From Mycobacterium colombiense CECT 3035 (GTDB taxonomy: Bacteria > Actinomycetota > Actinomycetes > Mycobacteriales > Mycobacteriaceae), in assembly GCF_002105755.1 (NCBI RefSeq), contig NZ_CP020821.1:186001-250000 (forward strand): 64,000 nucleotides of DNA, given 5' to 3'. A program made the position numbers and the translations under genes. Below are positions 5,858-23,555 of the stretch, one piece after another; position 1 is the stretch's first letter; each line of letters starts with the position of its first letter. Below the pieces are notes generated by a model. It was not told the DNA's origin. It did not search any database and saw only the letters and a program-made list of their open reading frames with translations.

Positions 5858-6580
5858 TCAGACGCGCGCCAGTCGGCCGCTGGTCGCCAGCAGCTGCCGA
5901 TCCGTGCTGTCGGTCAGCGCGCACAGCTGCGCCGGCGACAGCCGGCCGCACAATCGGCCCCAGTGCATCGCCACCACATCACCGGCGGCCACGTCGGGCA
6001 CCGCGCTGTACCCGTCGGCCCACACCTCGAGAACCCGGGGCGCCGGTTCGGACAGCGTCAGCGCCCGGCCATCCCAGGCCAGCCTTTCGCACAACACCTC
6101 GACGCGGTCGGCATCGCGGGAAAGCGCTGTGCCCCAAGTGATCCGGCAGTTGTCGAGCACACTCAACGGATGCTCATCCATGCCGCGCCCGAGAAACCGC
6201 GTCCACGGATACACCCCGAACACGTGGAAGCAGTGATTGCCGGCGGCCTCGCAGGCCAGATCGGCGGTCAGGTGCGACCAGTAGTGGCCGGCCTGCGGGC
6301 CGATGATCGCGAGCAGCGCGTCGAAGAAGTCCTGCGGGTCCAGACCGGCCGCGACGCCCCCGCCGAGCCAATACGATTCGACCAGACGGTAATCCAGCGG
6401 GTCGGCGATGCCGGTCAGTTGCGACAGCACCCGCAGATATGGCCACGCGCCGGAGAACTTCGTCGCCGCCCTGCGCACGTCGGCGACCGACCCGTCGCGC
6501 AGGGTGGCCCCCAACGGTGGACCGCAATAACCGAGCGCGTTGGGCGCATAGGCGTAGCGGGCGAACATCTCGGCGCCCAT
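5858..6580 (-). CDS. Hydrogenase-cluster protein of unknown function (DUF6390-like)
   Basis: The 240-aa protein starts MGAEMFARYAYAPNALGYCG. This matches my memory of the DUF6390 family found in actinobacterial uptake-hydrogenase clusters. Conserved-looking features are LGYCGPP, a WPYLR segment, HYWSHLTADLACEAAGNHCFH with several His and Cys that could bind metal, and a late WGRLCGRLS. The ATG at 6580 follows the hypD stop by 8 nt, so it belongs to the hyp operon. No signal peptide is seen. A role in hydrogenase maturation or electron transfer is inferred from context only. Confidence 0.7.
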   Translation of the reverse strand: MGAEMFARYAYAPNALGYCGPPLGATLRDGSVADVRRAATKFSGAWPYLRVLSQLTGIADPLDYRLVESYWLGGGVAAGLDPQDFFDALLAIIGPQAGHYWSHLTADLACEAAGNHCFHVFGVYPWTRFLGRGMDEHPLSVLDNCRITWGTALSRDADRVEVLCERLAWDGRALTLSEPAPRVLEVWADGYSAVPDVAAGDVVAMHWGRLCGRLSPAQLCALTDSTDRQLLATSGRLARV

Positions 6581-6588
6581 GTCAGCGG

Positions 6589-7719
6589 TCAAGTGCGCCC
6601 CACCAGCTTGACGGCGTCGCGGTGCATGCGCCCGAAGTTGTAGTAGGCCGCACAGGCGCCCTCCGGGGACACCATGCAGGTTCCGATCGGCGTCTCCGGT
6701 GTGCAGGCGGTACCGAAAACCTTGCACTCCCAAGGCTTGAGCACGCCCTTGAGCACCTCGCCGCATTGGCAGGCCTTCGGGTCGGCGACGCGCACGCCGG
6801 GCATCGCGAACCGCAGCTCGGCGTCGAACTCGGCGAAGTCGTCGTGCAGCCGCAGCGCGCTCTGCGAGATGAAACCCAGCCCGCGCCATTCGAAGTGCGG
6901 GCGCAGCGCGAACACCTTGCCCATCAATGCCAGCGCCGCGGGGTTGCCGTGCTCGGGTACCACGCGCTTGTACTGGTTCTCCACCTCGCAGCGGCCCTCG
7001 CGGATCTGGCGCAGCAGCATCGCGACCGAGGCCAGGATGTCCAGCGGCTCGAAACCGGCCACCACCAACGGCTTTCGATACACGTCCGGCACGAACCGGT
7101 ACGGGCGGTTGCCCACCACGGTGGACACGTGCCCGGGACCGATGAAACCCGACAGCCGCAGGTCCGGTGACTCGAGGATGGCCCGGATCGGCGGCACGAT
7201 GGTGACGTGGTTGCAGAAGACGCTGAAGTTGGGCAGGCCCAATTCGCGCGCCCGCACCAGGGTCACCGCGGTCGACGGCGCGGTGGTCTCGAAACCGATG
7301 GCGAAGAACACCACGTGTTTGTCGGGGTTGTCGACCGCGATCTTCAACGCGTCCAGCGGGGAGTAGACGAACCGCACGTCGGCCCCGCGGGCCTTGGCGT
7401 CCAGCAGGCTGCCGTGCGAGCCGGGCACCCGCATCATGTCCCCGAAGCAGGTGAAGATCACGCCGGGTTGGCCGGCCAGCCACATCGCGTCGTCGATGCG
7501 GCCCATCGGGATCACGCAGACCGGGCAGCCCGGCCCGTGCACCAGTTCGACGTTGTCCGGCAGCAGGTGTTCGATGCCGTGCCGGTAGATGGTGTGCGTG
7601 TGCCCGCCGCACACCTCCATGAATTTGAAGTCCTCGCCGCCGTCACCGGCCAGGTGTTCGATGGCCGTCAGCAGCTTGCGCGCTGCGGCCGGGTCACGGA
7701 ATTCGTCAACGAATTTCAT
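6589..7719 (-). CDS. hypD: Hydrogenase maturation protein HypD
   Basis: HypD (376 aa) is the [4Fe-4S] scaffold that, with HypC, assembles the Fe(CN)2CO unit of the [NiFe] active site. The characteristic motifs are present: CGGHTH (Cys37), GPGCPVC (Cys65, Cys68), GFETTAPSTA, and the C-terminal cluster-binding Cys set in CQCGEVLKG, FGTACTP, GTCMV and GACAAYY. Length is normal for the family. It sits between hypC and the DUF6390-like gene in a run of minus-strand maturation genes, with a 14-nt gap to hypC. Confidence 0.97.
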   Translation of the reverse strand: MKFVDEFRDPAAARKLLTAIEHLAGDGGEDFKFMEVCGGHTHTIYRHGIEHLLPDNVELVHGPGCPVCVIPMGRIDDAMWLAGQPGVIFTCFGDMMRVPGSHGSLLDAKARGADVRFVYSPLDALKIAVDNPDKHVVFFAIGFETTAPSTAVTLVRARELGLPNFSVFCNHVTIVPPIRAILESPDLRLSGFIGPGHVSTVVGNRPYRFVPDVYRKPLVVAGFEPLDILASVAMLLRQIREGRCEVENQYKRVVPEHGNPAALALMGKVFALRPHFEWRGLGFISQSALRLHDDFAEFDAELRFAMPGVRVADPKACQCGEVLKGVLKPWECKVFGTACTPETPIGTCMVSPEGACAAYYNFGRMHRDAVKLVGRT

Positions 7720-7733
7720 TGCCGCTCCTAGGG

Positions 7734-8006
7734 TCAGACGATGGCCGACGAATCGAAGGCCTGCATTTCGACCGCGTACGTGTCGCCGAGTTTCTTGATG
7801 GCGGCCAAGGTGAGCAGCGCCTCGGTCTCGTCGATCTTGGCCATCGCGAACCCGACGTGCACCAGCACCCAGTCGTCCGGGGTGGGCATGTCGTCTTCCA
7901 ACAGGCGCACGCTGATCGTGCGTTGCACGCCGCTGACGTCAACCTTCGCCAAATAATTTGCAGGATCGGTGATCTCCACGATCCGGCCCGGAATTCCTAG
8001 GCACAT
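7734..8006 (-). CDS. hypC: Hydrogenase maturation chaperone HypC (copy 1)
   Basis: The 90-aa protein starts MCLGIPGRIVEI. Cys2 of this motif is the residue HypC uses to carry the iron unit and bind the large-subunit precursor. The ATG at 8006 is chosen because HypC function needs Cys directly after the initiator Met; an in-frame upstream start would bury it. The remainder (DDWVLVHVGFAMAKID) is the usual OB-fold core. A second stand-alone HypC (12886-13152) and a HypC domain fused to a SIS-like domain (9799-10518) lie in the same operon, so division of labour among them is likely. Confidence 0.95.
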   Translation of the reverse strand: MCLGIPGRIVEITDPANYLAKVDVSGVQRTISVRLLEDDMPTPDDWVLVHVGFAMAKIDETEALLTLAAIKKLGDTYAVEMQAFDSSAIV

Positions 8007-8027
8007 GTCGGTGTATCTCCTCATCTA

Positions 8028-9140
8028 TCAACAGATCCGGGGCAGCGGGTCGCCGACCAGCATGTCGACGATCCGGGTCCCGCCGAATCCGGTGCGCAGC
8101 ACCACGCTTTCCGCCGGTTCGGTGACGATTTCCCCGACCTCGGCCGCCTGCGCGCCCAATGGGTGCGACCGTAACGCGGCCAGTCCGGCCTCGACCTCCT
8201 CCGGCGCGACGACGGCGACGAACTTGCCCTCGTTGGCGACATAGAGCGGATCGATGCCGAGCAGTTCGCAGGCGCCGTTCACCATGGGCGCCACCGGAAG
8301 TCGTTCCTCTTCGAGCAGCACCCCGAGGCCGCAGGCCTGGGCCAACTCGTTGCACACCGTGCCGACCCCGCCCCGGGTCGCGTCGCGCATCCACCGGGTG
8401 GACGGGGCGGCCGCCATCAGCAACTCGACCAGCGGGCTGACCGACGCGGTGTCGGAGGCGATGTCGGCCTCGATGGCCAGGTCGCCCCTGGCGAGCATCA
8501 CCGCCATGCCGTGATCGCCCATCGACCCGGACAGCAGCACCTTGTCTCCGGCCCGGACCGACTGAGCCGACAGCGCGCGGCCCGCGGGGATGACGCCGGT
8601 TCCGGCGGTGGTGATGAACAGGCCGTCGGCCGCGCCCTTGGGCACCACCTTGGTGTCGCCGGTGACGACCTGCACCCCGGCGGCCGACGCCGCGGCGGCC
8701 ATGTCGGCGACGATCTCTTTCAGTTCGCTGATCGGGAAACCTTCTTCGAGCACGAACGCCGCCGAGATCCAGGACGGCACGGCGCCGGCCACCGCCAGGT
8801 CGTTGCAGGTGCCGTGGATGGCGAGTTCGCCGATGGACCCGCCGGGAAACCGGCGGGGTTGCACCACAAAGGAATCCGTCGACATCGCCACCCGCTCGCC
8901 GCTGGGCAGGGCCAGGACGGCACCGTCGCCCAGCGACTCGAGCAGTGGATTGCGAAACGCCTCCACGAACACCGCGTCCACCAGCGCCGCCGACGCCTTG
9001 CCGCCCGCCCCGTGCGCCAGGGTCACATGGTCGTCGAGCAGCCGGGGGCGACGCCGGCGGAACGACTCGATCCGCTCGATCACGTCGCCTTCGCCGAACC
9101 GCGGCCCCGACGACAGGTAATCACCCGCGGGCTTGTTCAT
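8028..9140 (-). CDS. hypE: Hydrogenase maturation protein HypE
   Basis: HypE (370 aa) dehydrates the carbamoyl group delivered by HypF into the cyanide ligand. The protein ends PLPRIC; the C-terminal Cys is the residue that is thiocarbamoylated. Also visible are LAHGAGGKAS near residue 44, STDSFVVQP, CNDLAVAGAVP, and an AIR-synthase-like ATP-binding core (VVTGDTKVVPKG, DATRGGVGTVCNE). The ATG at 9140 overlaps the stop of the upstream SIS gene by one base (TGATG), which points to coupled translation. The first ~35 residues precede the conserved core and are a mild extension. Confidence 0.96.
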   Translation of the reverse strand: MNKPAGDYLSSGPRFGEGDVIERIESFRRRRPRLLDDHVTLAHGAGGKASAALVDAVFVEAFRNPLLESLGDGAVLALPSGERVAMSTDSFVVQPRRFPGGSIGELAIHGTCNDLAVAGAVPSWISAAFVLEEGFPISELKEIVADMAAAASAAGVQVVTGDTKVVPKGAADGLFITTAGTGVIPAGRALSAQSVRAGDKVLLSGSMGDHGMAVMLARGDLAIEADIASDTASVSPLVELLMAAAPSTRWMRDATRGGVGTVCNELAQACGLGVLLEEERLPVAPMVNGACELLGIDPLYVANEGKFVAVVAPEEVEAGLAALRSHPLGAQAAEVGEIVTEPAESVVLRTGFGGTRIVDMLVGDPLPRIC

Positions 9141-9802
9141 CACGCCGCCCCCCAATCGTGAGCAAGGCAATCGTGGACGGCCAGCCACAACTGGTAGCCG
9201 ACCAGCGCCTGTGATTCCTGAATGCGGTGCACGCTCTGCGACCGAACGACGAAGCAGGCGTCCACGTTCGGGTTGTTGACGAACGCGCCGCCGTCGTAAC
9301 CGGAAAAACCGATGGTGTACAGGCCGCGCTTGTGCGCCTCGGCCAGCGCCGTCAGCAGGTTGGGAGAATTGCCGCTGGTCGACATCGCGATCGCGATGTC
9401 GCCGTCGCGCGCGCGGGCGATCAGCTGCCGGGCGAACACCAGCTCGAACCCGACGTCGTTGCCCAGTGCGGTCAGGATCGCCTGGTCGGCGGTGAGCGAC
9501 CAGGCCGGCAGGGGATTGCCCAGCGGCGGCCGCGCGAAGAGTCCGGCCAGCGTGGTGCAGTCGGTGCAGCTGCCGCCGTTGCCGAAGGTGAACATCCTTC
9601 CGCCGGCGGCGAATCGGCGCGCCAGCTCGGCGGCGGCGGCCGCCAGCAGGTCGGCGTTGGCTTCCAGCGTGGAGCGTCGCAGTGCGAGGCTTTCGGACGC
9701 CTTGGCCAGCGCGGAGGCGGCGAGGTCGGTGAGCAGCGCGGAGGGGTCGTCCTCTTCGGCGTCGATGAACGGGTACAAGAAGTTGGTGGGCTCCGGACTC
9801 AT
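9140..9802 (-). CDS. SIS-domain protein of the hydrogenase operon (GmhA-like)
   Basis: The 220-aa protein has the sugar-isomerase (SIS) fold of the phosphoheptose isomerase type. MFTFGNGGSCTDCTT gives the phosphosugar-binding loop, MSTSGNSPNLL the second loop, and GFSGYDGG a third. A Cys-rich patch (GGSCTDCTT) is unlike typical GmhA. It overlaps hypE by one base and the SIS-HypC fusion by 4 nt, so it is embedded in the maturation set and is unlikely to serve lipopolysaccharide-type heptose synthesis. It may form a hetero-oligomer with the adjacent SIS-like fusion protein; this is inferred. The substrate is unknown. Confidence 0.82.
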   Translation of the reverse strand: MSPEPTNFLYPFIDAEEDDPSALLTDLAASALAKASESLALRRSTLEANADLLAAAAAELARRFAAGGRMFTFGNGGSCTDCTTLAGLFARPPLGNPLPAWSLTADQAILTALGNDVGFELVFARQLIARARDGDIAIAMSTSGNSPNLLTALAEAHKRGLYTIGFSGYDGGAFVNNPNVDACFVVRSQSVHRIQESQALVGYQLWLAVHDCLAHDWGAA

Positions 9803-10518
9803 GAAACGTCCTCCTCATCCATGCGGCTGATCGCGGTGCCGGCGTGCACCAGCACCAACTCGCCGGGAGCGACCGGGTCGACGAGCGTGGTGACCACGTC
9901 CTCGACCCCCCGGGCGGTGCGCACCCGGGCCTGTCCGCCGGCCGAGGCGCTCACCACCTCGCCGAGCCGGCCCTCGTCGCTGCACGTGACACACACCTCG
10001 TCGTCGGGTTGGGGTTTGAGCAGCCCGGAGTGTTCGAAACACACATGGGTCAGCTCCCACAGCAGGTGGTAGAACAGCACGAAGCCACCGGTGGCGGGCA
10101 CGCGCGGGTCGGGATCGTCCAGCCACAGCACGTGATCGGCCATGGCGGCGGGGGCCACCTCGCCACTGCCGATCCAGATCGTGGTGGCGCCCCAGGCCGG
10201 TGCGCGGCGCATCACCGCACGCACGTCCGCATTGTCGGCACCCGATATCGCGACCACGATGTCGCCGGGGCGCACCGAAACCCGCACCAGGTCCACCAGA
10301 TCGGATCCGGTCAACGCCACGGCCGGCAAGGCCCGCTTGCCCATGATCACCGGGTGGACGAATTCGACCGCGATGTGCAGCGCATGGGGTTCCCACGACG
10401 GCGCGATGGACCACATGGTGGCGCCCGCGGCGAATCGCTTGGCCAGCGTCAGGGCGGTCGCGGCGAGGTCTTCGGCCAGTTCGGCGCTCAGCCCGCGATC
10501 GATGGCGGTGGTGATCAT
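9799..10518 (-). CDS. SIS-like domain fused to a HypC/HupF domain
   Basis: Residues 1-165 resemble a SIS isomerase domain (phosphate-binding-like [10 protein letters not shown] near 91 and TTIWIGSG near 112). Residues 172-239 match the HypC/HupF family ([15 protein letters not shown], then [19 protein letters not shown]). In stand-alone HypC the functional Cys is residue 2; here the equivalent Cys176 and a second Cys179 are internal, so iron-unit transfer by a free N-terminal Cys cannot work in the same way. Start and stop overlap hypF and the next SIS gene by 4 nt each (ATGA type). The fusion itself is visible in one continuous frame. Its role, perhaps as a scaffold or regulator of maturation, is inference. 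Confidence 0.85.
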
Positions 10519-12884
10519 CGCGTCGACACCTCCTCCTGTGCGGTCAGCACCGAGACCGCGGCCTGTCCCAGGGCCAGCCCGCCGTCGTTCGGTGGCACGA
10601 TGCGATGTGTGAGCACCTCAAACCCGTTCTGCCGCAACCGCGTACGGCAGGCTTCCAGTAGCAGGACGTTCTGGAACACGCCGCCGGTGAGCCCCACCAG
10701 CGCGGTGCCGCCGGCCACCTGGGTGACGACCTGCGTGACGGCGACCGCGACGGCCTGGTGAAACGCCGCGGCCAACACCGCCGGTGCTGTCCCGGCGTAC
10801 AGCGCCGCGACCATGGTCTGCACCATCGGGGCGGGATCGATGACCCCGTCGGCACCCACCGTCAGGGGCAACGACGGCCGCGTGCGGGTATCGCCGGCCG
10901 ACTGCGCCAGCGCTTCGAGTTCGATCGCGGCCTGCCCCTCGTAATCGATGCGGTGCCGCACCCCCAGCAGGGAGGCGACCGCGTCGAACAGGCGGCCCAT
11001 GCTCGAGCAGGGCACGCAGGCCGCCCCGGTCTCCAATTGCGAACGGGTGAGCCGCAATTCGTCGTCGGACGCGGCCGCCACCGGCGCCAGGTCGGGGGTC
11101 CAGTCGATGTCGGCCGCCCACAGCTGGGACAGCGCCATCCGCCACGGGTTGCGCACCGCCGCGTCGCCACCGGGCAGCGGCACCGCCGACAGGTGGCCGG
11201 CCCGAACGAAACGATGGCTGCGGGCGTCGAGGGTGAGAATCTCACCGCCCCAGATGGTTTCGTCGCAGCCGTAACCGGTGCCGTCGAAGGCGACGCCGAC
11301 GATGGGTTCGCCGAGACGCCCATGTTCGGCCAGCAGCGACACCACATGGGCGTGATGGTGCTGGACCAGATCCAGCGGACGCTCGCCGGCATGACGCTCC
11401 GCCCAGCTCCGCGTGTGATAGCCGGGATGCAGGTCGGCGGCCAGACGTGCCGGCCGGCCACGGATTTCGCTGAGCTGGCTCACCGCCCGCTCGAACGCGC
11501 GCAGCGTCTCCCAGGTGGCCATGTCGCCGATGTGTCCGGACAGGTAGGCCCGGCCGCCGTCGGTGAGGCAGAAAGTGTTCTTCAATTCGCCGCCCACGGC
11601 CAGCACGGCCGGGCCGTCGAGTCGCAGGTCGATCGGCAGCGGTGCGTAGCCGCGGGACCGGCGGATCGGCAGCTCGTGGGCCCCGTGTTCGTCGTGGACG
11701 ACACGCACCACCGAGTCGTCGCAGGGCACGTGAATCGGCCGGTCGTGATCGAGCACCGCATCGCATAGCACCGGGAGTCGGTGCGCGGCATCACCGTCGG
11801 TGAAGCAGATGGGCTCGTCGGAGCGGTTGGCACTGGTCAGCACCAGCGCGTCGGGCGCCGGTGCGGAGCCGCCGGGTACCGGTGCCAGCAGCAGGTGATG
11901 GAGGGGGGAGTACGGCAGCATCAGTCCCAGCAGCGGGCTGCCCGGCGCGACAGCCTCGGCGACGGGCGCGCCGCCGCGCCGCCGCAGTAAGACGATCGGG
12001 CGGGCCGGGCCGGACAGCACCGCGGCCTCGGTGGCGTCGAGGTGGGCGTAGCGGCGCGCCACGCCGAGGTCGCGCACCAGCATCGCAAAGGGCTTGGCGC
12101 CGCGCGCTTTCCGGGCCCGCAACGCGGCGACCGCCGTCTCGTCGTCGGCGAGGCAGGCCAGGTGGTAGCCGCCGACACCCTTGATGGCCACCACGGCGCC
12201 GGACGCCAGGGCGCCCTGGGCGGCGGCCAGCGCCGCGTCCGCGCCGCTCACCCGCCCGGCCGGCGAGGCGAACCACAGGCTGGGCCCGCAGTCGGGGCAG
12301 GCGATCGGCTGCGCGTGGAATCGCCGATCAGCCGGGTCGTGGTATTCGGCGGTGCAGCGCGCACACATGGCGAACCGTGACATCGTGGTGGCGGGCCGGT
12401 CGTAGGGCAGTGCGGTGATGATGGTGAACCGCGGCCCGCAGTTGGTGCATGTCACGAACGGGTGCCGGTAGCGCCGGTCGAGCGGGTCGAACAGCTCGGT
12501 GACGCAGTCGTGACACACCGCGATGTCGGGGGGGATGGGAGTGCTGGTGCCGGCGGCCAATCGGCTTGGCACGATGCGGAATTCGGGTGGGCACGCGGGG
12601 TCGGCGGCGACGTCGGCAAGCTGTACGTCGGCGATCCGCGCCAGGGGCGGCGCCTCGGCGCGCAGCCGGCGCCCGAATTCCGCCACCGCGGCGGGCCGGC
12701 CCTGCACCTCGAGGAAGACCGCGCCCGAGTCGTTCCCGACGAACCCGGCCAGGCCCAGCTCGGTCGCGATCCGATGGACGAACGGGCGGAAGCCGACCCC
12801 CTGCACCACACCGGTGACCGTGGCGCGCTGCCGCACTTGGGTGTCGTGTGGGCCGCGCCGCAACAGCAGGGGGGTCTCGGTCAT
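10515..12884 (-). CDS. hypF: Carbamoyltransferase HypF
   Basis: HypF (789 aa, normal length) makes carbamoyl-AMP from carbamoyl phosphate and transfers the carbamoyl group to the HypE C-terminal Cys. The domain order is complete. An acylphosphatase domain (about 20-105, [14 protein letters not shown]) comes first. Two zinc-finger pairs follow (Cys124/127, 146/149, 174/177, 196/199). A YrdC-like domain begins at about 210 ([15 protein letters not shown]). The Kae1/HypF domain carries HHHAH and FDGTGYG. It overlaps the downstream SIS-HypC gene by 4 nt and follows the second hypC by 1 nt, so all belong to one transcript. Confidence 0.97.
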
Positions 12885-12885
12885 C

Positions 12886-13152
12886 TCAGCCGGCCTCCGG
12901 CTGGGGTGTCAGGTCGGTGCGGCCGCGGCCCATCAGCTCCAGGCCGGCCATGGCCTGCTCGGCCCCGGCCTGATCCGTCTTCTCGACGACGAAGCCCATG
13001 TGGATGATCACCCAGTCGCCGGGCGCGAACGTCTCCTCCGGCAACATGCCGACGTTGACCTTGCGTTGGTCACCGGCGACGTCGACCAGCGCGAGCTGTC
13101 CTTCGTAACCGTCCAGCATGGCGATGACCTGCCCCGGTATGCCCAAACACAT
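12886..13152 (-). CDS. Hydrogenase maturation chaperone HypC (copy 2)
   Basis: This 88-aa protein starts [12 protein letters not shown], with the essential Cys2, and shares the HypC core [16 protein letters not shown]. It differs clearly from the other stand-alone copy at 7734-8006 in the C-terminal half and in the turn after the first strand. One copy may serve the HypD complex and the other chaperone the large subunit or work with the protease that follows it directly (3-nt gap); this is inference from position. It lies between the protease gene and hypF in the operon. Confidence 0.93.
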
Positions 13153-13155
13153 GAT

Positions 13156-13653
13156 TCAGCACCCCGTTTCGGCCGTCGGGGACGTGGCGCCGTGCAGCGC
13201 CGCGACGATCTCCTCGACCGCCCGCGCCGCCCGCGGGACGGCCTGCGCGACGGGCTCGGTGAGCCCGATGCCCTCCTGCACGCTGCCCGCCTCACACCCG
13301 ACGACCACGGTGTAGGGCGGCTGGCCGCCCAGCGCCCGCAGGCTGGCGAAGACCGCGGCGGGATCCATGCTGTGCCCGTCGAGGCCGTTCGCCTCGGAGG
13401 ACGAATCGTGGTCGGCCTGAAAGACGTGCAACGTGCCGGGATGCCCCTGGCTGGGCACGGCGTCGACCAGCACCAGCGTGTCCCACTCTTCGAGCAGGTC
13501 GTAGGCCAGGTGCATGCCCCGGATTCCGTAGTCGATGACCTGGACCGTCGGATCGTCCTGGGGCAGTTCGGCGTTGCGGACCACCTCGGAGCCGAACCCG
13601 TCGTCGCCCAGGAAGATGTTGCCGATCCCGGCTACCAGGATGCGCGTCGTCAT
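13156..13653 (-). CDS. Hydrogenase large-subunit maturation endopeptidase (HyaD/HoxM type)
   Basis: The 165-aa protein belongs to the peptidase A31 family, which removes the C-terminal peptide of the large subunit after nickel insertion. The N-terminal motif VAGIGNIFLGDDGFG followed by SEV gives the nickel-sensing acidic residue, and VIDYGIRGMHLAYDL and VLVDAV match the family core. The large subunit in this cluster keeps a 22-residue tail after CGVH, which is the expected substrate. The ATG at 13653 is chosen because the family motif starts within ten residues. It lies 17 nt after the microprotein stop and 3 nt before hypC copy 2. Confidence 0.93.
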   Translation of the reverse strand: MTTRILVAGIGNIFLGDDGFGSEVVRNAELPQDDPTVQVIDYGIRGMHLAYDLLEEWDTLVLVDAVPSQGHPGTLHVFQADHDSSSEANGLDGHSMDPAAVFASLRALGGQPPYTVVVGCEAGSVQEGIGLTEPVAQAVPRAARAVEEIVAALHGATSPTAETGC

Positions 13654-13670
13654 GGTGGCACCCGTGTCGG

Positions 13671-13790
13671 CTACATCCGCCTCAACTTGAGATAGCGGCG
13701 GGCATCGGGCACCGATATCGCGCCGAGAACCAGCCCGATCGCGGCCACCAGCGCGACGATGGCGATGAAGATCCAACCTAGGACTTCCAT
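13671..13790 (-). CDS. 39-aa single-pass membrane microprotein (DUF6893-like)
   Basis: A short frame encodes MEVLGWIFIAIVALVAAIGL, then a short linker and a basic end (PDARRYLKLRRM). One hydrophobic segment of about 20 residues (5-25) should span the membrane, with a cytosolic basic tail by the positive-inside rule. The ATG at 13790 has a strong ribosome site, aaggag, 6 nt upstream and overlaps the 3' end of the preceding gene by 13 nt, so translation is probably coupled. The Ser-x-Pro-Asp-x-x-Arg-Tyr-x-x-x-Arg-x-Met end matches my memory of the DUF6893 small-protein family. It is a candidate membrane tether or stabiliser for the otherwise soluble hydrogenase; that role is inferred. Confidence 0.75.
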   Translation of the reverse strand: MEVLGWIFIAIVALVAAIGLVLGAISVPDARRYLKLRRM

Positions 13791-15139
13791 GGTGAACTCC
13801 TTTTGTTTGTGCTGTGCTGCGGTTGCAGCGGTTCGACTTCGTCGGGGGAGAAGTACAGATAGCGGCCGTACCAGTCATGCAGGTCCGCGGCCGGGTCCTC
13901 GTCCACGACGACGCCGACGTGCTTGTTGCCCTCGACATCCTCATGCACCGAGGTGACGCGGGCGGTCTTGCCGGCGACGAAGATGTCCTGCGCGTCGGCG
14001 TTGCGCCGCGGCCGCAGCCGCACCTTGCTGCCCCGCGCTATCCGGACCCCGTTCACCAGCACCGCGTCGATCTCGGGCCGGACGGCGTTGTCGGCCAGCG
14101 GATCCCACCAATCCACGCCGTCGGGGATCTCGGGCACCATGCCGGCGGAGACATTGAGCCCGTGCGGGTCGCGCAGCACGCCGTGCAGCCGTGCCATGGC
14201 CTCGGGCGACATGGCGTCGCACTCGTCGATGATTCGCGCGGCCCGCGGGTCGGTCGCCCGGGCCTGCGCCTTCTCGTCGTCGGTCATGGTCATCACGCGC
14301 AGGGTGAGGATCTCGTCGATCTCCGTGCAGTCGTACAGCGCGGTGTCGCTCTGTTCGGCGACCTCGGGGTGGTCGTAGAGGATGATCGGTGAGATCAGCA
14401 GCATGTCGTCGGTGCCTTGAGGTCCCGCCAGCACCGGGAAGCAGCGGTGCCGCCGGCAGCGGGACACCGCGTCGGTCGCGGCCTGGGGTGGCTCGAGCAG
14501 CGAGATGAACCGGCCGCCAACCACTTCGGCGATGAGGTGCGTGCCGATCATCGATCGTGCGATCACCGAATTTTTGTCGTCGTCCGCGCGTACGGCCGCA
14601 CCGGTGTTGGCGACCCGCACCGAGACCCGCCGCAGGTCGCCGTCGGGCTCGCTGGTGACGGTCAGTTCGCCCCGTATCTCGTGACGTTCGCGAACCAGCC
14701 GGCCGCCGTCCACGGTTTCGATGTCGGTGCCCGCTTCGGCGGTCACCGGCAGCGACCAGGGCTGGTCGCCGAACGCCAGCGGGCCGAAGGAGATCTCGCA
14801 TTCCACGGCCTCGTCCCAGGTCAGCCACGATCCGGCTGGGGTGTGGAGTTCGTCGACGGCAACGAAATCGCCGTCGCCGGTGGCCCGTTCGGCCCGCCGG
14901 CGCTGCAACTGCAGGAAGCGCACCACCAGCGTCAGCGCCCGCGCGTCGTCGACCAGGAACTCCGCGGACAGGGTGTCGTCTTCGCCCAGGCCGGCCTCGG
15001 CCGCGCCGGGCGGTCCCAAAACCCCGAATTGCCAGCGTGATTGGTTCTTGCTCGACGTTCCCCGATACGGGTAGAGCAGATAACCCTCGTAGAGCACGGC
15101 GTCGGCGACGGCGCGCGCCCGGTCCCAGCTCGATGTCAT
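13778..15139 (-). CDS. Hydrogenase-cluster protein of unknown function (453 aa)
   Basis: The protein has no signal peptide or membrane segment. The N-terminal part contains VLYEGYLLYPYRGTSSKNQ, a middle part has a beta-rich region (SVRVANTG, VISGTHLIAE-like), and near 220-240 a Cys/Arg patch SRCRRHRCFPV. The last ~80 residues (GSKVRLRPRRNADAQDIF to YLYFSPDEVEPL) look like a small beta-barrel with an acidic 'HVGVVVDEDPAADLHDW' segment. I do not recognise a characterised family. It overlaps the DUF6084-like gene by 4 nt and the microprotein start by 13 nt, so it is certainly translated within the hydrogenase operon. Similar genes in other group 1h clusters are expected but could not be checked. 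Confidence 0.8.
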   Translation of the reverse strand: MTSSWDRARAVADAVLYEGYLLYPYRGTSSKNQSRWQFGVLGPPGAAEAGLGEDDTLSAEFLVDDARALTLVVRFLQLQRRRAERATGDGDFVAVDELHTPAGSWLTWDEAVECEISFGPLAFGDQPWSLPVTAEAGTDIETVDGGRLVRERHEIRGELTVTSEPDGDLRRVSVRVANTGAAVRADDDKNSVIARSMIGTHLIAEVVGGRFISLLEPPQAATDAVSRCRRHRCFPVLAGPQGTDDMLLISPIILYDHPEVAEQSDTALYDCTEIDEILTLRVMTMTDDEKAQARATDPRAARIIDECDAMSPEAMARLHGVLRDPHGLNVSAGMVPEIPDGVDWWDPLADNAVRPEIDAVLVNGVRIARGSKVRLRPRRNADAQDIFVAGKTARVTSVHEDVEGNKHVGVVVDEDPAADLHDWYGRYLYFSPDEVEPLQPQHSTNKRSSPWKS

Positions 15140-15795
15140 CGCGCCACCTCGTGATCGACGGTGGCATCCAGCAGCGCGGTGACCGCGTGGTCGAAGTCGA
15201 GCATCCCGTGGGCCGACTTGTAACCGGCCAGTTCCGCGATGGTCTCGTGGCTCAGCCGGATCCATCCGCTGTTGGGGTAGTGCTGGGCGATCAGGTCGCG
15301 CCAGACCGTGACGGGCATGGCGTAGTTGTCCTCGCAGTCCCAGGACACCTGCTGCACCGAGAACCCGCGCTCGGAGTTGACGAAAATCGTTCCGCTGAAC
15401 AGGAACTGCAGCGGCACCGCCCCGTCGCGTAGCGCGTGCAGGTATTTGGCGGCCGCGACCTCGAAGTCGTAAGTGCACTCCAGCGGCAGGGTCGCCGTCG
15501 TATGCCCGGTGAAGCCCGGCACCATCGCGGCGCAGTGCTGCCACAGGAAGGTGCGCTGGGTGCTGGCCCAGCGCTCGCGGCCGCCGAACAGATCCATCAG
15601 CCCGGCCGCCTCGTCGTCGGAGTAGCTACGGCGCAACGGCTCGATGCGGACCTGGCAGCGCAGGGCGATGGCGTGCACCGGGTCGGGGCCGGCGGCGGTG
15701 ACGCCGACCCGGGCGGTGAGCACCGGGCTGACGGTGTACGGTTCGGCGGTCACGTCCAGGACCTCGAAGCTGACGTTCGTCGGCGGGGCGTTCAT
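15136..15795 (-). CDS. Hydrogenase-cluster protein, DUF6084-like
   Basis: The 219-aa protein contains SFEVLDVTAEPYTVSPVL, AIALRCQVRIEPLRR, LMDLFGGRERW, MVPGFTG and CTYDFEVAAAKYLHALRDG. These agree with my memory of DUF6084, an actinobacterial family linked to uptake-hydrogenase loci. It is predicted soluble and rich in beta structure, followed by a helical end (IAELAGYKSAHGMLDFDHAV). The ATG at 15795 is chosen over upstream in-frame starts because it overlaps the DUF5947-like stop by 4 nt and starts just before the conserved strand. The biochemical role is unknown. Confidence 0.78.
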   Translation of the reverse strand: MNAPPTNVSFEVLDVTAEPYTVSPVLTARVGVTAAGPDPVHAIALRCQVRIEPLRRSYSDDEAAGLMDLFGGRERWASTQRTFLWQHCAAMVPGFTGHTTATLPLECTYDFEVAAAKYLHALRDGAVPLQFLFSGTIFVNSERGFSVQQVSWDCEDNYAMPVTVWRDLIAQHYPNSGWIRLSHETIAELAGYKSAHGMLDFDHAVTALLDATVDHEVAR

Positions 15796-16436
15796 CGCGG
15801 TGTCTTTGTGGCGCGGGTGGCGAGCCGGTCGAAGAAGTCGTCGATGTATTCGCGGGCCTGTTGTCCGCCGTCGAAGCCGCGCCACACCATCCGCAGGCGT
15901 CCGACGAATTCATAGCAGGCGTCGATGGGCACCAGATAGGTTTGTGGCTGCGACAATTCGCCGTCCTGGGCGGTGTCGGCGACCCGGACGAGCAGCGCCT
16001 CGACGTCGTCGGCCAGCAGGCTCACCCGCGGGTCGGCGCCGCGGATGGTGTCCCAGACCTCCATGTCCAGTTCGGATTCCGTTGCCCCGGCCGGCCCCGG
16101 GTAGAAGGCGACGGTCTGGCCGAGGGCGGAGTTGGTGAAGAAGAACGCGACCCCGACCGGGATCTGCAGCGCCTCCCACACCAGGCGGTCGAGCGCGAAG
16201 TCGGGGAAGGACAGGTACCGGTCCGGCACCGCGCGGTAACGAAGGTCGGCTTCGGTGTCGGTGAACAGCAGATAGCAGGCGCGGCACACGCACATGAGCT
16301 GGCGGCCGGCCACATTGACCACGTGTTGGTGCTCGTCGGCGATCGACTCCGCGCACATCTCGCAGCGCTCACCCGCCGGCTCGGGGGCGCGGCGGTCGCT
16401 CCTGATGCTCGCCAGGACGTCGAACGGGGTGCTCAT
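15792..16436 (-). CDS. Zinc-ribbon-containing hydrogenase-cluster protein, DUF5947-like
   Basis: The 214-aa protein has two Cys pairs near the N-terminus (CEMC at about 25-28 and CVCRAC at about 49-54) with a His in between (DEHQHVVNV). This looks like a zinc or iron site. The remainder contains RAVPDRYLSFPDFALD, FFFTNSALGQ, FYPGPAGATES and WRGFDGG, which fit my memory of DUF5947. It overlaps both neighbours by 4 nt. Its placement directly after the NifU-like/4-Cys protein suggests a part in cluster handling or electron transfer; this is inference. Confidence 0.78.
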   Translation of the reverse strand: MSTPFDVLASIRSDRRAPEPAGERCEMCAESIADEHQHVVNVAGRQLMCVCRACYLLFTDTEADLRYRAVPDRYLSFPDFALDRLVWEALQIPVGVAFFFTNSALGQTVAFYPGPAGATESELDMEVWDTIRGADPRVSLLADDVEALLVRVADTAQDGELSQPQTYLVPIDACYEFVGRLRMVWRGFDGGQQAREYIDDFFDRLATRATKTPR

Positions 16437-17356
16437 GCCGGCGCGCCCAACCCGTGCACCGGCTCGTGGGCCGGCAAGGCCACCGACAGCACGCCGTCCC
16501 GGGCCAGCAGCGGCATCGGATCCAGATGGGCGGCCGAACCCTCGGCGGCGGCCCCCGCACCGACGACGTCGAAATCCGTCCCGCAGCCGGCGCAGCGCAG
16601 CATGCGACCGTGCAGGTGCGAACCCGCCAGCGTGTCGTCACACACCGGGCAGTGATCTCGGTAGGCGAAGGTCCGGTCCCCGACCCGGCAGGCCAGCATC
16701 CTCACCCCGTCGATCGCGAATCCGGCGACCTCGCCGGGTATCAGCTCGGCCAGCTCGGGGGCCGGGCGCCAGGCGGTCGGCCCATGGCCGTTCGAATGCA
16801 GGTGCGCCAGTAGCGACTGCGCCGGAATGACGCTCGCCGGAGCGGTCGTCGTCTCGGCCGTCACCACCTCGATCGAGGAGATCTCCGGTGCCGCCGCGCG
16901 GACCGCGTCCTGCACGGCCAGCTCCAGCGTCACCGCGGACGACGGGCAGCTCTTGCAGCTGCCGGTGAAGGCCAGCCGCACGGTGTCGTCGGCCACCTCG
17001 AGCAGGTCGACGTCGCCGCCGTGCGAACCCAGGTAGGGCCGCACCCGATCCAGGGCGTCGGAGACCCTGCGGTGCACGTCGTGCGGATGCAGGCCGTGCA
17101 CCAGGAGCAGGCTGGCCACCAGGTCGTCGGTGGCCAGCCGCTCGACCAGCCCCCCGTCCGGTTCGGGATCGCCGACCATCCACATGATCCGCTCCAGCCC
17201 GGCGCCGTACAGCCCGACCACCTCGCGAACCAGTTGCTGCGCACGGTCATACGCGGCGGTCCCACCCGCAGCGCAGGAATCCAGCAGTGTCTGGATCCGA
17301 TCGCCCGCCTCACGCCACTGCGCGTCGTTCGCGGACTTGTCCGGGCGATCCGCCAT
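16433..17356 (-). CDS. NifU-like scaffold domain fused to a four-Cys Rieske-like domain
   Basis: The 307-aa protein has a helical N-terminus, then a NifU C-terminal-type Fe-S domain (about 95-165; Cys134 and Cys137 in TGSCKSCPSS). A C-terminal domain (about 205-300) is laid out like a Rieske ferredoxin. In that domain the ligand set reads CPVC (236/239) and CAGC (255/258), so all four positions are Cys instead of two Cys and two His. That suggests a tetra-Cys iron, Fe-S or zinc site. It is placed 3 nt after the large-subunit gene. In related high-affinity hydrogenases such proteins are thought to carry electrons toward the quinone pool; the same role is inferred here. Confidence 0.85.
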   Translation of the reverse strand: MADRPDKSANDAQWREAGDRIQTLLDSCAAGGTAAYDRAQQLVREVVGLYGAGLERIMWMVGDPEPDGGLVERLATDDLVASLLLVHGLHPHDVHRRVSDALDRVRPYLGSHGGDVDLLEVADDTVRLAFTGSCKSCPSSAVTLELAVQDAVRAAAPEISSIEVVTAETTTAPASVIPAQSLLAHLHSNGHGPTAWRPAPELAELIPGEVAGFAIDGVRMLACRVGDRTFAYRDHCPVCDDTLAGSHLHGRMLRCAGCGTDFDVVGAGAAAEGSAAHLDPMPLLARDGVLSVALPAHEPVHGLGAPA

Positions 17357-17359
17357 GCG

Positions 17360-19159
17360 TTACTCCCCGACGGGTGACTGGGTGGGCGTGTGCAGTCTGT
17401 CCAGGGATTTGCCCTTCCCCAGGTACATGTGCACGCCACACGGCAGGCACGGATCGAAGCTGCGCACCGTGCGCATGACGTCGATTCCCTTGAAGTTGTC
17501 CCGGCCGTTCTCCTCGAAGATCGGCTGGCCCTGGACCGCGTCCTCGTACGGACCCGGCGTGCCGAAGCTGTCCCGCGGGTTGGCGTTCCACGGCGTCGGC
17601 GGGTACGGGTGATAGTTGGCGATCTTGCCGTCCCGGATCACCATGTGGTGGCTGAGCACACCGCGCACCGCCTCGGTGAAGCCGCATCCGATGGCCTCGT
17701 CGGGCACCTCGAACTTCTCCCACGTCTTGGTGCGTCCGGCGCGGATCTCCTCGAGCGCCTTCTCGGCGAAGTGCAGAGCGCACGCCGCCGCGTAGGCCTG
17801 GAAGTAGGTGCGCGCCCGGTCGCGTTCGAGCGTGTTGCTGCCGTACGTGGGGATCTTCCACTCCAGCTCGACCGGTCCCTTCAGGGCGGTCTTGGGCAGG
17901 TTGATCTTCACGCTCGAACCGGTCGCCTTGACGTAACCGATGTCGACCAGGCCGGCCAGCGCCGTCGACCACAGCCGGGCCAGCGGACCGCCACCGGTGT
18001 CCAGCGCCAGGTGGTCCTTGCCGTCGAACCAGCGCGGTGACATCACCCAGCTGTACTTGCCGCCCTCTAAGTCCCGCTTCTGCGGGTGCGGGTTGGTGTG
18101 CTGGTTCCACGGGTGGCGCCGGTCCACCGCGTTGCCCAGCGGATCGGTCTTGACGAACATCTCCTGGTCGGTCCAGTCATCGTAATATGAACTGCCCAAA
18201 AGGATTCGGATGCCGAGGTTGATGTCCACCAGTGAGTGGGTGACCAGTTTGCCGTCGACCACCACGCCAGGGGTGACGAACATCGCGTTACCCCAGCGCT
18301 CCATGTCCTTGTATTCGAAGTTGCACACCTCGGGGTCCTGGAAGGAGCCCCAGCAGCCCAGCAGGGTGCGGCGCAGCCCGACCTTCTCGTAACCGGGCAA
18401 TGCGGTGTAGAAGAAGTCGAACAGGTCGTCGTGCATCGGGACGACCTTCTTCATGAACTCGACGTAGCGCATCAGCCGCGTCATGTAGTCGGTCATCAGC
18501 TGGATGGTCGCCACCGTGCCGACCCCGCCGGGGTACAGGGTGGAGGGGTGCACGTGGCGTCCCTCCATGAGGCAGAACATCTCTCGCGTCCACCGGCTGA
18601 CCACCAGCGCCTCGCGGTAGAACTCACCGCTGAACGGGTTGAGCGAGCGCATGATGTCGGCGATCGTCTTGTACCCGTGGGCGTCCGCGTGCGGGGCGGG
18701 CGTCTTCTCGGCCAACGAGAGCACGCTCGGGTTGGTCTCGGAGACCATCTTCTCGCAGAAGTCGACGCCCACCAGGTTCTCCTGGAAGATGTTGTGGTCG
18801 AACATGTATTCCGCGGCCTCGCCGAGGTTGACGATCCACTCGCCCAGGTGTGGCGGCTTGACGCCATAGGCCATGTTCTGCGTATAGCACGAACAGGTGG
18901 CGTGGTTGTCGCCGCAGATGCCGCAGATGCGGCTGGTGATGAAGTGGGCGTCGCGGGGGTCCTTGCCCTTCATGAAGATCGAGTAGCCGCGGAAGATCGA
19001 CGAGGTGCTGTGGCACTCGACGACCTCACGGTTCTCGAAGTCGATCTTGGTGTAGATGCCCAGGCTGCCCACGATCCTGGTGATGGGATCCCAGGCCATG
19101 TCGACCAGTTGGCCGGGCTCCCGCTTCGCATGGGTGGGTTCAGGAATGATGGTTGTCAT
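17360..19159 (-). CDS. hhyL: [NiFe]-hydrogenase large subunit, group 1h (actinobacterial high-affinity type)
   Basis: The 599-aa catalytic subunit oxidises H2. The proximal motif is RICGICGDNHATCSCY with active-site Cys79 and Cys82. The distal motif is DPCLPCGVH with Cys571, Cys574 and His577, followed by a 22-residue tail that the protease should remove. Segments such as EYMFDHNIFQENLVGVDFCE match Streptomyces and Ralstonia actinobacterial-type enzymes as I remember them and differ from the Huc (group 2a) type. The ATG at 19159 is preferred; an upstream in-frame extension lacks conserved sequence. No Tat signal is present. The gap to the small-subunit stop is 97 nt. Confidence 0.96.
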   Translation of the reverse strand: MTTIIPEPTHAKREPGQLVDMAWDPITRIVGSLGIYTKIDFENREVVECHSTSSIFRGYSIFMKGKDPRDAHFITSRICGICGDNHATCSCYTQNMAYGVKPPHLGEWIVNLGEAAEYMFDHNIFQENLVGVDFCEKMVSETNPSVLSLAEKTPAPHADAHGYKTIADIMRSLNPFSGEFYREALVVSRWTREMFCLMEGRHVHPSTLYPGGVGTVATIQLMTDYMTRLMRYVEFMKKVVPMHDDLFDFFYTALPGYEKVGLRRTLLGCWGSFQDPEVCNFEYKDMERWGNAMFVTPGVVVDGKLVTHSLVDINLGIRILLGSSYYDDWTDQEMFVKTDPLGNAVDRRHPWNQHTNPHPQKRDLEGGKYSWVMSPRWFDGKDHLALDTGGGPLARLWSTALAGLVDIGYVKATGSSVKINLPKTALKGPVELEWKIPTYGSNTLERDRARTYFQAYAAACALHFAEKALEEIRAGRTKTWEKFEVPDEAIGCGFTEAVRGVLSHHMVIRDGKIANYHPYPPTPWNANPRDSFGTPGPYEDAVQGQPIFEENGRDNFKGIDVMRTVRSFDPCLPCGVHMYLGKGKSLDRLHTPTQSPVGE

Positions 19160-19256
19160 CGCGTAACTTCTTCCCGCTTTGGCTGCTGTCAGCGTCCGCT
19201 GATGCGGCGACGGCTTTTCCGGACTGGAGGGAGGAGCGCGCACACCGGTAGGTGAC

Positions 19257-20312
19257 CTACCAGGTGCGGCGCGCTCCAGTGGTGAGTTTGTCGCCGTTGT
19301 GGCGCCACCGCGGCTCTTTGTCGACGGTGCGTTCCGTGATACCCCTCAGACTGCGAATCACGGCTCCGTACAGACCCGACGCGGTGCTCGAGATCTTGCC
19401 GCCCGGCGGCTCGTCCATGAACGGCATGAACTTGTCCGGGAACCCCGGCATCGTGCAGCCGATGCAGATCCCACCGACGTTGGGGCAACCCCCGACACCG
19501 TTGATCCACCCGCGCTTGGGCACGTTGCATTTGACGACGGGGCCCCAGCAGCCAAGCTTCACAATGCATTTCGGCGACCCGTACTCGGTGGCGAAGTCGC
19601 CCTGCTCGTAGTAGCCGGCCCGGTCGCAACCCTCGTGCACGGTCTTGCCGAACAGCCACTGCGGGCGCAGCGCGTCATCGAGCGGGATCATCGGCGCCTG
19701 GCCGGTCGCCATGTAGAGCAGGTAGGTCAGCGTCTCCGACAGGTTGTCCGGCTGGATCGGGCAGCCGGGCACGCACACAATCGGGATGCCCGCCTTGCTC
19801 TTCCAGTCCCAGCCGAGGTAGTCCGGCACGCCCATCGCCCCCGTCGGGTTGCCGGCCATCGCGTGGATTCCCCCGTAGGTGGCGCAGGTCCCGACCGCCA
19901 CGATGGCGGTGGCCTTGGGCGCCAACCGGTCGAGCCACTCGCTGGTGGTCATCGGCTGCCCGGTGGCCGGGTCGTTGCCGAAGCCGCACCAGTAGCCCTC
20001 GTCCTTGATCTTCTCGTTCGGAATCGATCCCTCGACCACCAGCACGAAGGGTTCCAGCTCGCCGCGGTCGGCTTTGAAGAACCACTCCAGAAAGTCGTCC
20101 GCGCCTCCGTTGGGGCCGCACTCGAAGTCGATCAGGGGCCAGTGCACGGCGACCTGGGGGAGTCCGGGCAGGGCTCCCAGGGCGATCTCCTCGACGCTGG
20201 GCTGGGTGGCAGCAGTCAATGCCACCGAATCACCGTCACAACTGAGCCCAGCATTGATCCATAGAACATGGATCAGTGTTTGTTCTGCCTTGACTGCTGC
20301 TTCTGTTGGCAT
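19257..20312 (-). CDS. hhyS: [NiFe]-hydrogenase small subunit, group 1h
   Basis: The 351-aa subunit carries the Fe-S relay to the electron acceptor. It begins without a twin-arginine leader, so the dimer should be cytosolic. The proximal cluster motif is GLSCDGDS (Cys25, Asp28), where Asp takes the place of the second Cys; a 3-Cys/1-Asp proximal cluster is known for the actinobacterial-type enzyme of Ralstonia. Later Cys motifs include VGTCATYGG, VPGCPIQPD, HEGCDRAGYY, KLGCWGPVVKCN and GGICIGCTMPGFPD. It lies upstream of the large subunit, and an upstream gap of 256 nt to hypB probably holds a promoter. A ggaaag ribosome site lies 8 nt before the ATG. Confidence 0.96.
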   Translation of the reverse strand: MPTEAAVKAEQTLIHVLWINAGLSCDGDSVALTAATQPSVEEIALGALPGLPQVAVHWPLIDFECGPNGGADDFLEWFFKADRGELEPFVLVVEGSIPNEKIKDEGYWCGFGNDPATGQPMTTSEWLDRLAPKATAIVAVGTCATYGGIHAMAGNPTGAMGVPDYLGWDWKSKAGIPIVCVPGCPIQPDNLSETLTYLLYMATGQAPMIPLDDALRPQWLFGKTVHEGCDRAGYYEQGDFATEYGSPKCIVKLGCWGPVVKCNVPKRGWINGVGGCPNVGGICIGCTMPGFPDKFMPFMDEPPGGKISSTASGLYGAVIRSLRGITERTVDKEPRWRHNGDKLTTGARRTW

Positions 20313-22906: not shown

Positions 22907-22969
22907 TGGGGTCCTTCCGGCGCGTCCTTGCGGTATCGGCTGAGCACAACCGGCACGACTGTAAGTACC

Positions 22970-22996
22970 GCGACTCGCCAGATGCAAGTGAGTCGC
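22970..22996. promoter_or_regulatory. Inverted repeat in the nicT/Fur-family divergent promoter
   Basis: Arms gcgactc and gagtcgc are separated by 13 nt and lie about midway between the two divergent start codons (22906 and 23064). The position and dyad symmetry suit a binding site for the adjacent Fur-family repressor, which could then control its own gene and the nicT-hyp-hydrogenase genes. No direct evidence for binding exists in the sequence. Confidence 0.4.
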
Positions 22997-23063
22997 AGGA
23001 ATTGAGGTGCCGTGATCGCACCCAAGACTGGCGATCCCGCCGCTACGGCGCGACACTGAACCG

Positions 23064-23555
23064 GTGGCGCCCAAGCCGTCGGTACTGGATGCGTCGGTCA
23101 CCGAGAGGATCGGCGATTTTCTGCGTGCCCGGGGGCTGCGACGGATGGCCTCGCGGATCCAGGTGCTGGCGGTGCTCGAACCCGTCAACGGCCACCTGCC
23201 GGTGGCCGAGATCGACAAGCGACTGCGGGAGTCCCTGCCGCCCGGCGCCCACGCGCCCGACGTGGCGACCGTCTATCGCACGGTGACGACGCTGGTCGAT
23301 CAGGGGGTGTTGCACGCGTTGACGCTCGACGGCGGCGTGACGACCTACGGTCTGGCCACCGCGCCGCACCATCACGCGGTATGTACGAAGTGCGCCACCA
23401 TCATCGAGGTGCCCGCGCGCCAGCTGAGTTCGGCCCTCGAACACGCGATGGCGGGCAGCTCGTTCGCGCTGTCGGAGGCGGCAGGGCTGACGCTGCACGG
23501 CTTGTGCCCGCGGTGCCAGGAGGACAAGCCCGCCGCGCGGCCGCGCCGGCGCTGA
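23064..23555 (+). CDS. Fur-family metalloregulator, probable nickel sensor (Nur-like)
   Basis: The 163-aa protein has the Fur layout: an N-terminal winged helix with DVATVYRTVTTLVDQG (about 66-80), a His-rich hinge HHHAVCTKC (102-110) and a C-terminal dimerisation domain with CPRC (148/151). The two CxxC pairs form the structural zinc site, and the three His residues belong to the regulatory metal site. It is transcribed away from nicT, so it probably represses nickel uptake and perhaps the hydrogenase operon. Zur or a general Fur identity cannot be excluded from sequence. GTG start. Its end is 2 nt from the convergent mtr stop. Confidence 0.85.
   Translation: MAPKPSVLDASVTERIGDFLRARGLRRMASRIQVLAVLEPVNGHLPVAEIDKRLRESLPPGAHAPDVATVYRTVTTLVDQGVLHALTLDGGVTTYGLATAPHHHAVCTKCATIIEVPARQLSSALEHAMAGSSFALSEAAGLTLHGLCPRCQEDKPAARPRRR

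Follow-up and report, generated by a model that had tools for sequence, protein, structure and literature searches.

Why should a [NiFe]-hydrogenase gene cluster of Mycobacterium colombiense CECT 3035 encode two SIS proteins side by side, one of them continuous with a HypC domain, and what might such a pair do there? An earlier note on this locus, made from the DNA letters alone, had pointed to a SIS-like domain and a HypC domain in one reading frame, to a second SIS protein overlapping both this fusion and hypE, and to a link with hydrogenase maturation. All three observations held in our analysis, which covered the window (i.e., the whole stretch of 64,000 nucleotides, to whose positions the coordinates below refer unless another locus is named), its relatives, and samples of further genomes. 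The reading that we favor, with moderate confidence and from sequence comparison, is that the two proteins, P0001 and P0002, are putative halves of one GmhA-type metalloenzyme for [NiFe]-hydrogenase maturation, which would dock on HypD through a HypC variant that we call HypCx.

The hydrogenase cluster and its two SIS proteins

The minus strand of the window carries one [NiFe]-hydrogenase cluster, as judged from Pfam and NCBIfam matches. Read 5' to 3', it starts with the small (19257-20312) and large (17360-19243) hydrogenase subunits (Pfam; together 17360-20312), followed by NifU-domain, DUF5947, and DUF6084 genes (15136-17356; Pfam), a gene at 13941-15167 whose 408-residue product had no Pfam match at 0.001, the maturation protease HycI (13156-13944; Pfam), and an ordinary hypC (P0005, 12886-13152; N-terminus MCLG; Pfam and NCBIfam). 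It continues with hypF (P0004, 10515-12884; TIGR00143, 733.7 bits), P0001, P0002, hypE (P0003, 8028-9140; TIGR02124; C-terminal end PRIC), a second ordinary hypC (P0007, 7734-8024; TIGR00074, 79.3 bits; Met-Cys at residues 7-8 of the called frame), hypD (P0006, 6589-7719; TIGR00075), and a DUF6390 gene that overlaps the start coordinate of hypD (5861-6592; Pfam, 345.9 bits) and that also lies 3' of hypD in 74 of the 77 hypD-holding loci among the best 80 of 185 relatives. We take the hydrogenase to be of group 1h, a label based partly on cluster content; the NifU/DUF5947/DUF6084 set is common to this cluster and that of Cupriavidus necator pHG1. By their coordinates, hypF and P0001 overlap by 4 bases, P0001 and P0002 by 4 bases, and P0002 and hypE by 1 base, an arrangement like that of a tightly coupled operon. 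A gene for a NicO high-affinity nickel transporter (21794-23218) lies near the cluster.

P0001 (9799-10518, minus strand) is a 239-amino-acid protein read from an ATG start in a single uninterrupted frame. Pfam finds HupF_HypC at residues 187 to 237 (37.5 bits against a cut-off of 28.5) and no SIS domain in P0001 itself, and a comparison with PDB sequences gave weak matches only. A profile of 46 fusion proteins nevertheless aligned over residues 8 to 163 with a profile of six SIS proteins from hyp clusters, P0002 included (hhalign probability 98.6, E 8e-16), and orthologues in which this region is less degenerate pass the Pfam SIS_2 cut-off of 27 bits (50.4 bits at locus L142, 42 bits at L005). 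By these alignments, residues 1 to 165 (10024-10518) are a degenerate SIS domain, here called SISa. An assembly or frame artifact as the origin of the fusion is ruled out, since one frame spans both parts in all of the best 80 of 185 relatives; an M. colombiense record in that scan is 96% identical to P0001.

P0002 (SISb; 9140-9802, minus strand; 220 amino acids) is a plainer member of the family, with 60.5 bits to Pfam SIS_2, a best PDB match to Burkholderia pseudomallei GmhA (E 6e-28), a GNGGS loop at residues 74 to 78, a STSGNS loop at 141 to 146, and Gln195. It scores below the NCBIfam cut-offs for phosphoheptose isomerase (107.5 against 276 bits for PRK13936, 99.2 against 209.45 for TIGR00441), while P0001 has no match to these curated models. 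These scores, together with absent His and Glu residues (below), rule out P0002 as an ordinary GmhA.

HypCx, a CxTC-type variant of HypC

The second domain of P0001, HypCx (Pfam; residues 172-239, 9802-10005), has no N-terminal Met-Cys (Cys2); instead, it carries a CVTC motif at residues 176 to 179 (Cys176 and Cys179; 9982-9993), and a histidine, His225, within LVHAG. Both cysteines and the histidine are invariant across 46 aligned fusion proteins, and 115 of 117 HypCx hits have CxTC, the remaining two having CTIC and CIVC. Against TIGR00074, P0001 reaches 32.8 bits, under the cut-off of 48, and separately encoded HypCx proteins pass Pfam HupF_HypC (43.8 bits in Thermus, 31.1 bits in genome G368).

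The earlier note had remarked that HypC depends on an N-terminal cysteine, so that the fusion must act otherwise. The lack of this cysteine is, however, no consequence of the fusion: in the separate HypCx genes examined, with starts read from the sequence, several residues separate any Met start from the motif, so that unfused HypCx also lacks a Met-Cys start and the fusion did not bury the cysteine. Ten loci have the gene order hypC-HypCx-hypD, and in five loci the 1h small subunit is the next mapped gene after HypCx, at a distance of 3 kb in one case (L152).

A small glutaredoxin-like gene lies 3' of the tandem SIS gene in Thermus (L112, 12629-12889) and Sulfobacillus (L113, 12988-13215), and another occurs in the fetched stretch of genome G195 (L149, 14258-14482). 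Such a protein could reduce the CxTC of HypCx.

A probable GmhA-type active site divided over two proteins

In GmhA, one monomer contributes His61, Glu65, and His183 as zinc ligands and its neighbor contributes Gln175 (PMC5387315), and all four ligands matter for activity (PMC5705639). In a docked model, the substrate is bound by residues from two loops, GNGGS and STSGNS (PMC7705670), and three chains contribute residues to each site (PMC11056994). In our alignment, His48, Glu52, and His151 of P0001 match GmhA His61, Glu65, and His183, positions that are occupied by Thr84, Leu88, and Tyr203 in P0002, while Gln195 of P0002 stands at the position of Gln175. Neither polypeptide thus has all four ligands, P0001 having the His/Glu/His set only and P0002 the glutamine only; taken together, however, the two contain every zinc- and phosphate-site residue.

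This complementarity extends through the family. After thinning at 85% identity (48 SISa and 58 SISb rows from 127 each), His61, Glu65, and His183 are each present in 48/48 SISa rows, against 0/48 for the STS..S phosphate-loop set and 1/48 for the GNGGS serine. The SISb rows show the reverse, with the GNGGS Asn and Ser in 58/58, the STS..S set in 58/58, and Gln175 in 57/58, but His61 and Glu65 in 0/58 each. The unthinned alignments agree: each of the 127 SISa rows has the triad and none has the STS..S set, and each of the 127 SISb rows has the STS..S set and none has His61 or Glu65. Residual ligands (His183 in 32/58 SISb rows, Gln175 in 20/48 SISa rows) show that the split is incomplete in some lineages. 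Four single SIS proteins encoded on proteobacterial plasmids have all zinc ligands and both loops, one of them with Ala as the last loop Ser. In a phylogenetic tree, SISa and SISb each form one well-supported clade and single SIS and GmhA proteins two more, the branching order of the four being unresolved. One further case comes from G288, a genome of the same family, whose fusion lacks the His/Glu segments and the last, His-bearing helix but retains HypCx, CVTC included; searched in full, this genome gave no SISb match at E ≤1e-8. Loss of the triad alongside absence of SISb is, in this single case, what a shared site predicts.

Most likely, then, P0001 and P0002 would form one shared active site. 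The earlier note had envisaged a SIS pair that binds a sugar phosphate or nucleotide; to us, the two look unlike separate binders, the residues conserved in one complementing those of the other within a single GmhA-type site. SISa would supply the zinc ligands His48, Glu52, and His151, and SISb the phosphate-gripping loops GNGGS and STSGNS and the fourth ligand, Gln195, so that a SISa2-SISb2 tetramer would contain two functional sites, both alike, where GmhA has four identical ones. We infer that the proteins form a complex that binds metal, is catalytically active, and docks on HypD.

Alternatively, the SIS pair might be a noncatalytic sensor that binds a sugar phosphate and signals carbon status to maturation via HypCx. 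The degenerate phosphate loop of SISa would fit such a role, as would the presence of SIS domains in regulators, seen here as weak MurR/RpiR and AlsR matches in NCBIfam, and the absence of the SIS part in some lineages that retain HypCx. We nonetheless consider a sensor rather unlikely: a mere sensor would not need the metal triad, which is kept in every SISa row despite divergence elsewhere in the domain and is gone in the one case without SISb.

Occurrence and gene arrangements

Among the best 80 of 185 relatives, all of them Mycobacteriaceae or Pseudonocardiales records, SISa-HypCx in one frame is followed by SISb in 80/80 and then by hypE in 79, the contig ending in the remaining one. This conservation of the fusion and of the gene order is more than chance. 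In a phylum-wide sample of 296 genomes, 47 had a match, 40 of them to the SIS part and seven to the HypC part alone (G042, G133, G141, G163, G165, G172, and G283), and a class-wide sample added weak SIS-only matches (3e-7 to 6e-7) in G481, G487, and G496, all without a HypD match. As the query was the mycobacterial P0001, diverged SISa proteins may have escaped these searches.

The mapped loci comprise 91 SISa-HypCx fusions (counting the window copy and one genome twice), 28 SISa-SISb tandem frames (one broken), and seven loci with three separate adjacent genes. SISa and SISb are each found in 127 loci, the two sets differing at L128, a short stretch without SISb, and at L005, whose SISa had been labeled "single" by our script and was set aside, leaving four true singles. 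Thermus and Sulfobacillus have the tandem SIS gene, which in Thermus spans 11458-12636 of L112, and a separate HypCx before hypD. The four singles lie just before hypD on plasmids of Cupriavidus necator, Afipia, Methylocystis, and Bradyrhizobium (L111, L114, L115, and L125), and no HypCx hit was obtained within these fetched stretches; the single of C. necator H16, in the pHG1 hydrogenase cluster, is H16_RS31885. The module thus occurs in Actinomycetota, Deinococcota, Bacillota, and Pseudomonadota (other phyla were sampled through plasmids only). A hyp or hydrogenase gene besides HypCx is present in the fetched stretch of 126 of the 132 SIS loci, the other six being short stretches.

These data also speak to whether the SIS genes could be ordinary phosphosugar isomerases, for heptose or another sugar, that sit in hyp operons by chance. 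GmhA structures are indeed the best matches of P0002, and the M. smegmatis counterpart, numbered next to hypE, is annotated gmhA (PMC5445863). We disfavor this explanation as very improbable, given that neither protein alone has a GmhA site, that P0002 falls far under the curated cut-offs (107.5 against 276 bits, 99.2 against 209), that SISa is fused to a HypC domain, and that hyp or hydrogenase genes accompany nearly all SIS loci.

Several loci carry features of their own. In the record of the Sulfobacillus acidophilus plasmid (L113, about 11800-12990), the tandem SIS gene is unannotated and has a frame break toward its 3' part. Two genes publicly labeled "hydrogenase expression protein HypE" (L111, 2255-3310; L115, 4043-5122) have the 1h small subunit as a match, at E 1e-167 and 2e-170, respectively, and adjoin the large subunit; they are probably mislabeled. 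A 437-kb Mycobacterium intracellulare plasmid typed as mobilizable (L116) carries the module near rubisco and cbbX, in a cluster with a hydrogenase of another type, and may represent transferable hydrogen-driven carbon fixation.

The module follows a HypD lineage

The earlier note had proposed checking co-occurrence across group 1h clusters. The module, however, is not specific to that group: it occurs both with 1h and with a second hydrogenase type, which we take to be HydL2a, and what it follows is one lineage of HypD. Defining close HypD as at least 65% identical to the window protein (one partial), we found SISa in 38 of 44 close-HypD genomes of the phylum sample, against 0 of 109 genomes with other HypD matches. 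The corresponding counts for the class sample are 17 of 25 and 0 of 38, nine HypD genomes being common to the two samples. A HypD tree (58 of 124 rows after thinning at 93% identity) was built from loci that were partly hand-chosen, among them 40 stretches picked so that both SIS-bearing and SIS-free HypD loci were represented. It contains one 18-row clade without SIS or HypCx nearby; in the rest of the tree, leaving out the long-branched HypD of the C. necator membrane-bound hydrogenase (MBH), SIS or HypCx lies within 15 kb in 37 of 39 rows. The window HypD belongs to this SIS/HypCx-carrying lineage, as do those of the four proteobacterial plasmid clusters. Conversely, 1h clusters occur with either lineage. 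The same genus has two Hyp systems for 1h: the one in the window (5861-20312), with the SIS/HypCx type of HypD, and one at L154 (G038) and L156 (G501), where HypD is of another lineage and SIS, HypCx, and HypX are all absent nearby. The HypD positions at which the lineages differ gave no clear hint, the C. necator MBH HypD having many SIS-lineage states.

That the module tracks HypD and not the hydrogenase directs attention to the HypCD stage of cofactor assembly. HypCx, with its CxTC and conserved histidine, would probably dock the enzyme on HypD, and the product would be handed over at the place of Fe(CN)2CO assembly. Within this lineage, the SIS part is dispensable: of 14 close-HypD genomes lacking a hyp-type SIS, ten had no match at E ≤1e-10 in whole-genome searches, the other four had matches at 1e-29 to 1e-30 only, and the three of these that were inspected (L177, L178, and L179) showed ordinary GmhA motifs or placement with GmhA in the tree.

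A further possibility is that the work is done by HypCx, as a second HypC carrying iron or relaying electrons to HypD via CxTC, and that the SIS domains act mainly as an oligomer platform or as an aid in delivering HypCx. Ten close-lineage loci (L135-L141, L145, L147, and L148) have HypCx without SIS in the fetched stretch, and the glutaredoxin-like genes by the tandem SIS genes and in the G195 stretch would suit a redox function. The four plasmid clusters of the same HypD lineage, whose fetched stretches contain a complete SIS protein but gave no hit for HypCx, argue that SIS has a value of its own, and we regard this possibility as unlikely. The conserved order, the fusions and splits, the complementary residues, and the linkage to one HypD lineage are the observations on which the preferred reading, a divided enzyme docked on HypD, is built.

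HypX and the supply of CO

Mycobacteria make hydrogenase in air. In air, HypX produces CO from formyl-tetrahydrofolate, and the anaerobic source is not known (PMC12134894). A HypX search of the window's own genome gave partial, enoyl-CoA hydratase-like matches only, and none at E ≤1e-60. Near full-length HypX was found in six of 296 genomes, and matches at E ≤1e-60 in 14 of 246 (one partial), 11 of which belong to one genus (f4/g7) with the other HypD lineage. Among the loci of the HypD tree, HypX lies near other-lineage HypD only (2 of 18 rows, and the C. necator MBH) and in none of the 39 rows of the close lineage. When loci L162, L163, and L142 are compared, the mapped gene preceding the 1h small subunit in G023 and G452 is that for HypX, and SISa-HypCx-SISb occupies this place in G368.

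A strict replacement of HypX by the module is weakened by clusters that have neither and by a nonsignificant exclusion across genomes. Among 205 HypD genomes, 13 with HypX and 53 with SISa, both are present in G086 and G401, and p is about 0.3, an approximate value because two of the 53 (G184 and G259) have no HypD match. Neither SIS nor HypX was found nearby in seven of the fetched 1h loci (L154, L156, L157, L159, L161, L167, and L169), of which two lie in genomes of the same genus, and the genomes of these seven had no HypX match at 1e-60. For these reasons, we hold a role in CO supply as a candidate, not as a conclusion. We infer a metabolite-processing step at HypD, perhaps supplying CO without HypX. 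Our leading candidate for the product, put forward tentatively, is CO itself or an immediate precursor, for organisms whose hydrogenase matures under air. More doubtful still is the specific proposal of a second aerobic, HypX-independent supply of the CO ligand, in which the SIS pair or single, with or without HypCx, would act as a zinc enzyme with a divided site and turn a phosphorylated metabolite via an enediolate into CO or a formyl-type precursor at HypD.

Two genomes of the same family, neither of which gave a HypD match, also encode near full-length HypX relatives (G050:C98:165023-166711 and G235:C100:216970-218658), so that proteins of the HypX type may also serve purposes other than hydrogenase.

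Significance and comparison with known systems

Taken together, the sequences likely describe a variant of the Hyp machinery, in which a GmhA-like enzyme spread over two paralogues would be tied to HypD via a CxTC-type HypC. A divided enzyme, a HypC variant, and one HypD lineage, recurring together in four phyla, make a candidate for an extra chemical step, and the pair suggests an unstudied step in building the iron-carbonyl center. The splitting of the site of a homomeric enzyme over two paralogues looks like a clear case of its kind. The question of the aerobic CO source bears directly on mycobacteria, whose hydrogenase is made in air and in one of whose genomes, that of the window, we found no full HypX.

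The earlier note had regarded a SIS pair in hydrogenase maturation as undescribed. This stands for its function: within the open-licence literature searched, in the parts available, neither the fusion, the pairing, HypCx, the division of the active site, nor a function of the pair is described. It does not stand for the gene itself, which had been marked before. A putative gmhA and a putative glutaredoxin 3 are marked in Acidobacteria group 1h loci (PMC5900883), gmhA (MSMEG_2706, the number next to hypE, MSMEG_2705) is among the M. smegmatis genes that are higher in stationary phase (PMC5445863), and a SIS-domain cluster appears among genes near [NiFe]-hydrogenases (PMC12727194). The Acidobacteria and M. 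smegmatis genes are of the same type and lie in the same kind of cluster as the SIS module (PMC5900883, PMC5445863); in the available portions of those reports they are marked only, unlike here, where a pairing, a fusion, HypCx, and a split site are described.

Like HypX of C. necator, the SIS module is an extra set of maturation genes, and in G368 it precedes the 1h small subunit as HypX does in G023 and G452. Unlike it, P0001 and P0002 match no formyltransferase or enoyl-CoA hydratase-like family in Pfam or NCBIfam and in these searches show no sequence relation to HypX, which in the tree loci keeps to HypD of other lineages. HypCx shares with HypC, HybG, and HupF (PF01455) the Pfam match, the LVHAG histidine, and, in the ten loci above, a place between hypC and hypD; it differs from them in its internal CxTC in place of an N-terminal cysteine, in its TIGR00074 score below cut-off, and in ending about 10 residues past the last conserved motif, the tail of ordinary HypC being longer. 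With GmhA, finally, the pair shares membership in the SIS family by sequence, the GNGGS and STSGNS loops and Gln175 (in SISb), and the His/Glu/His set (in SISa). P0002 differs from GmhA in falling under the curated cut-offs. The GmhA site spans subunits (PMC5387315), as that of the pair putatively does, but the residues that GmhA repeats in four identical chains are here distributed over two proteins.
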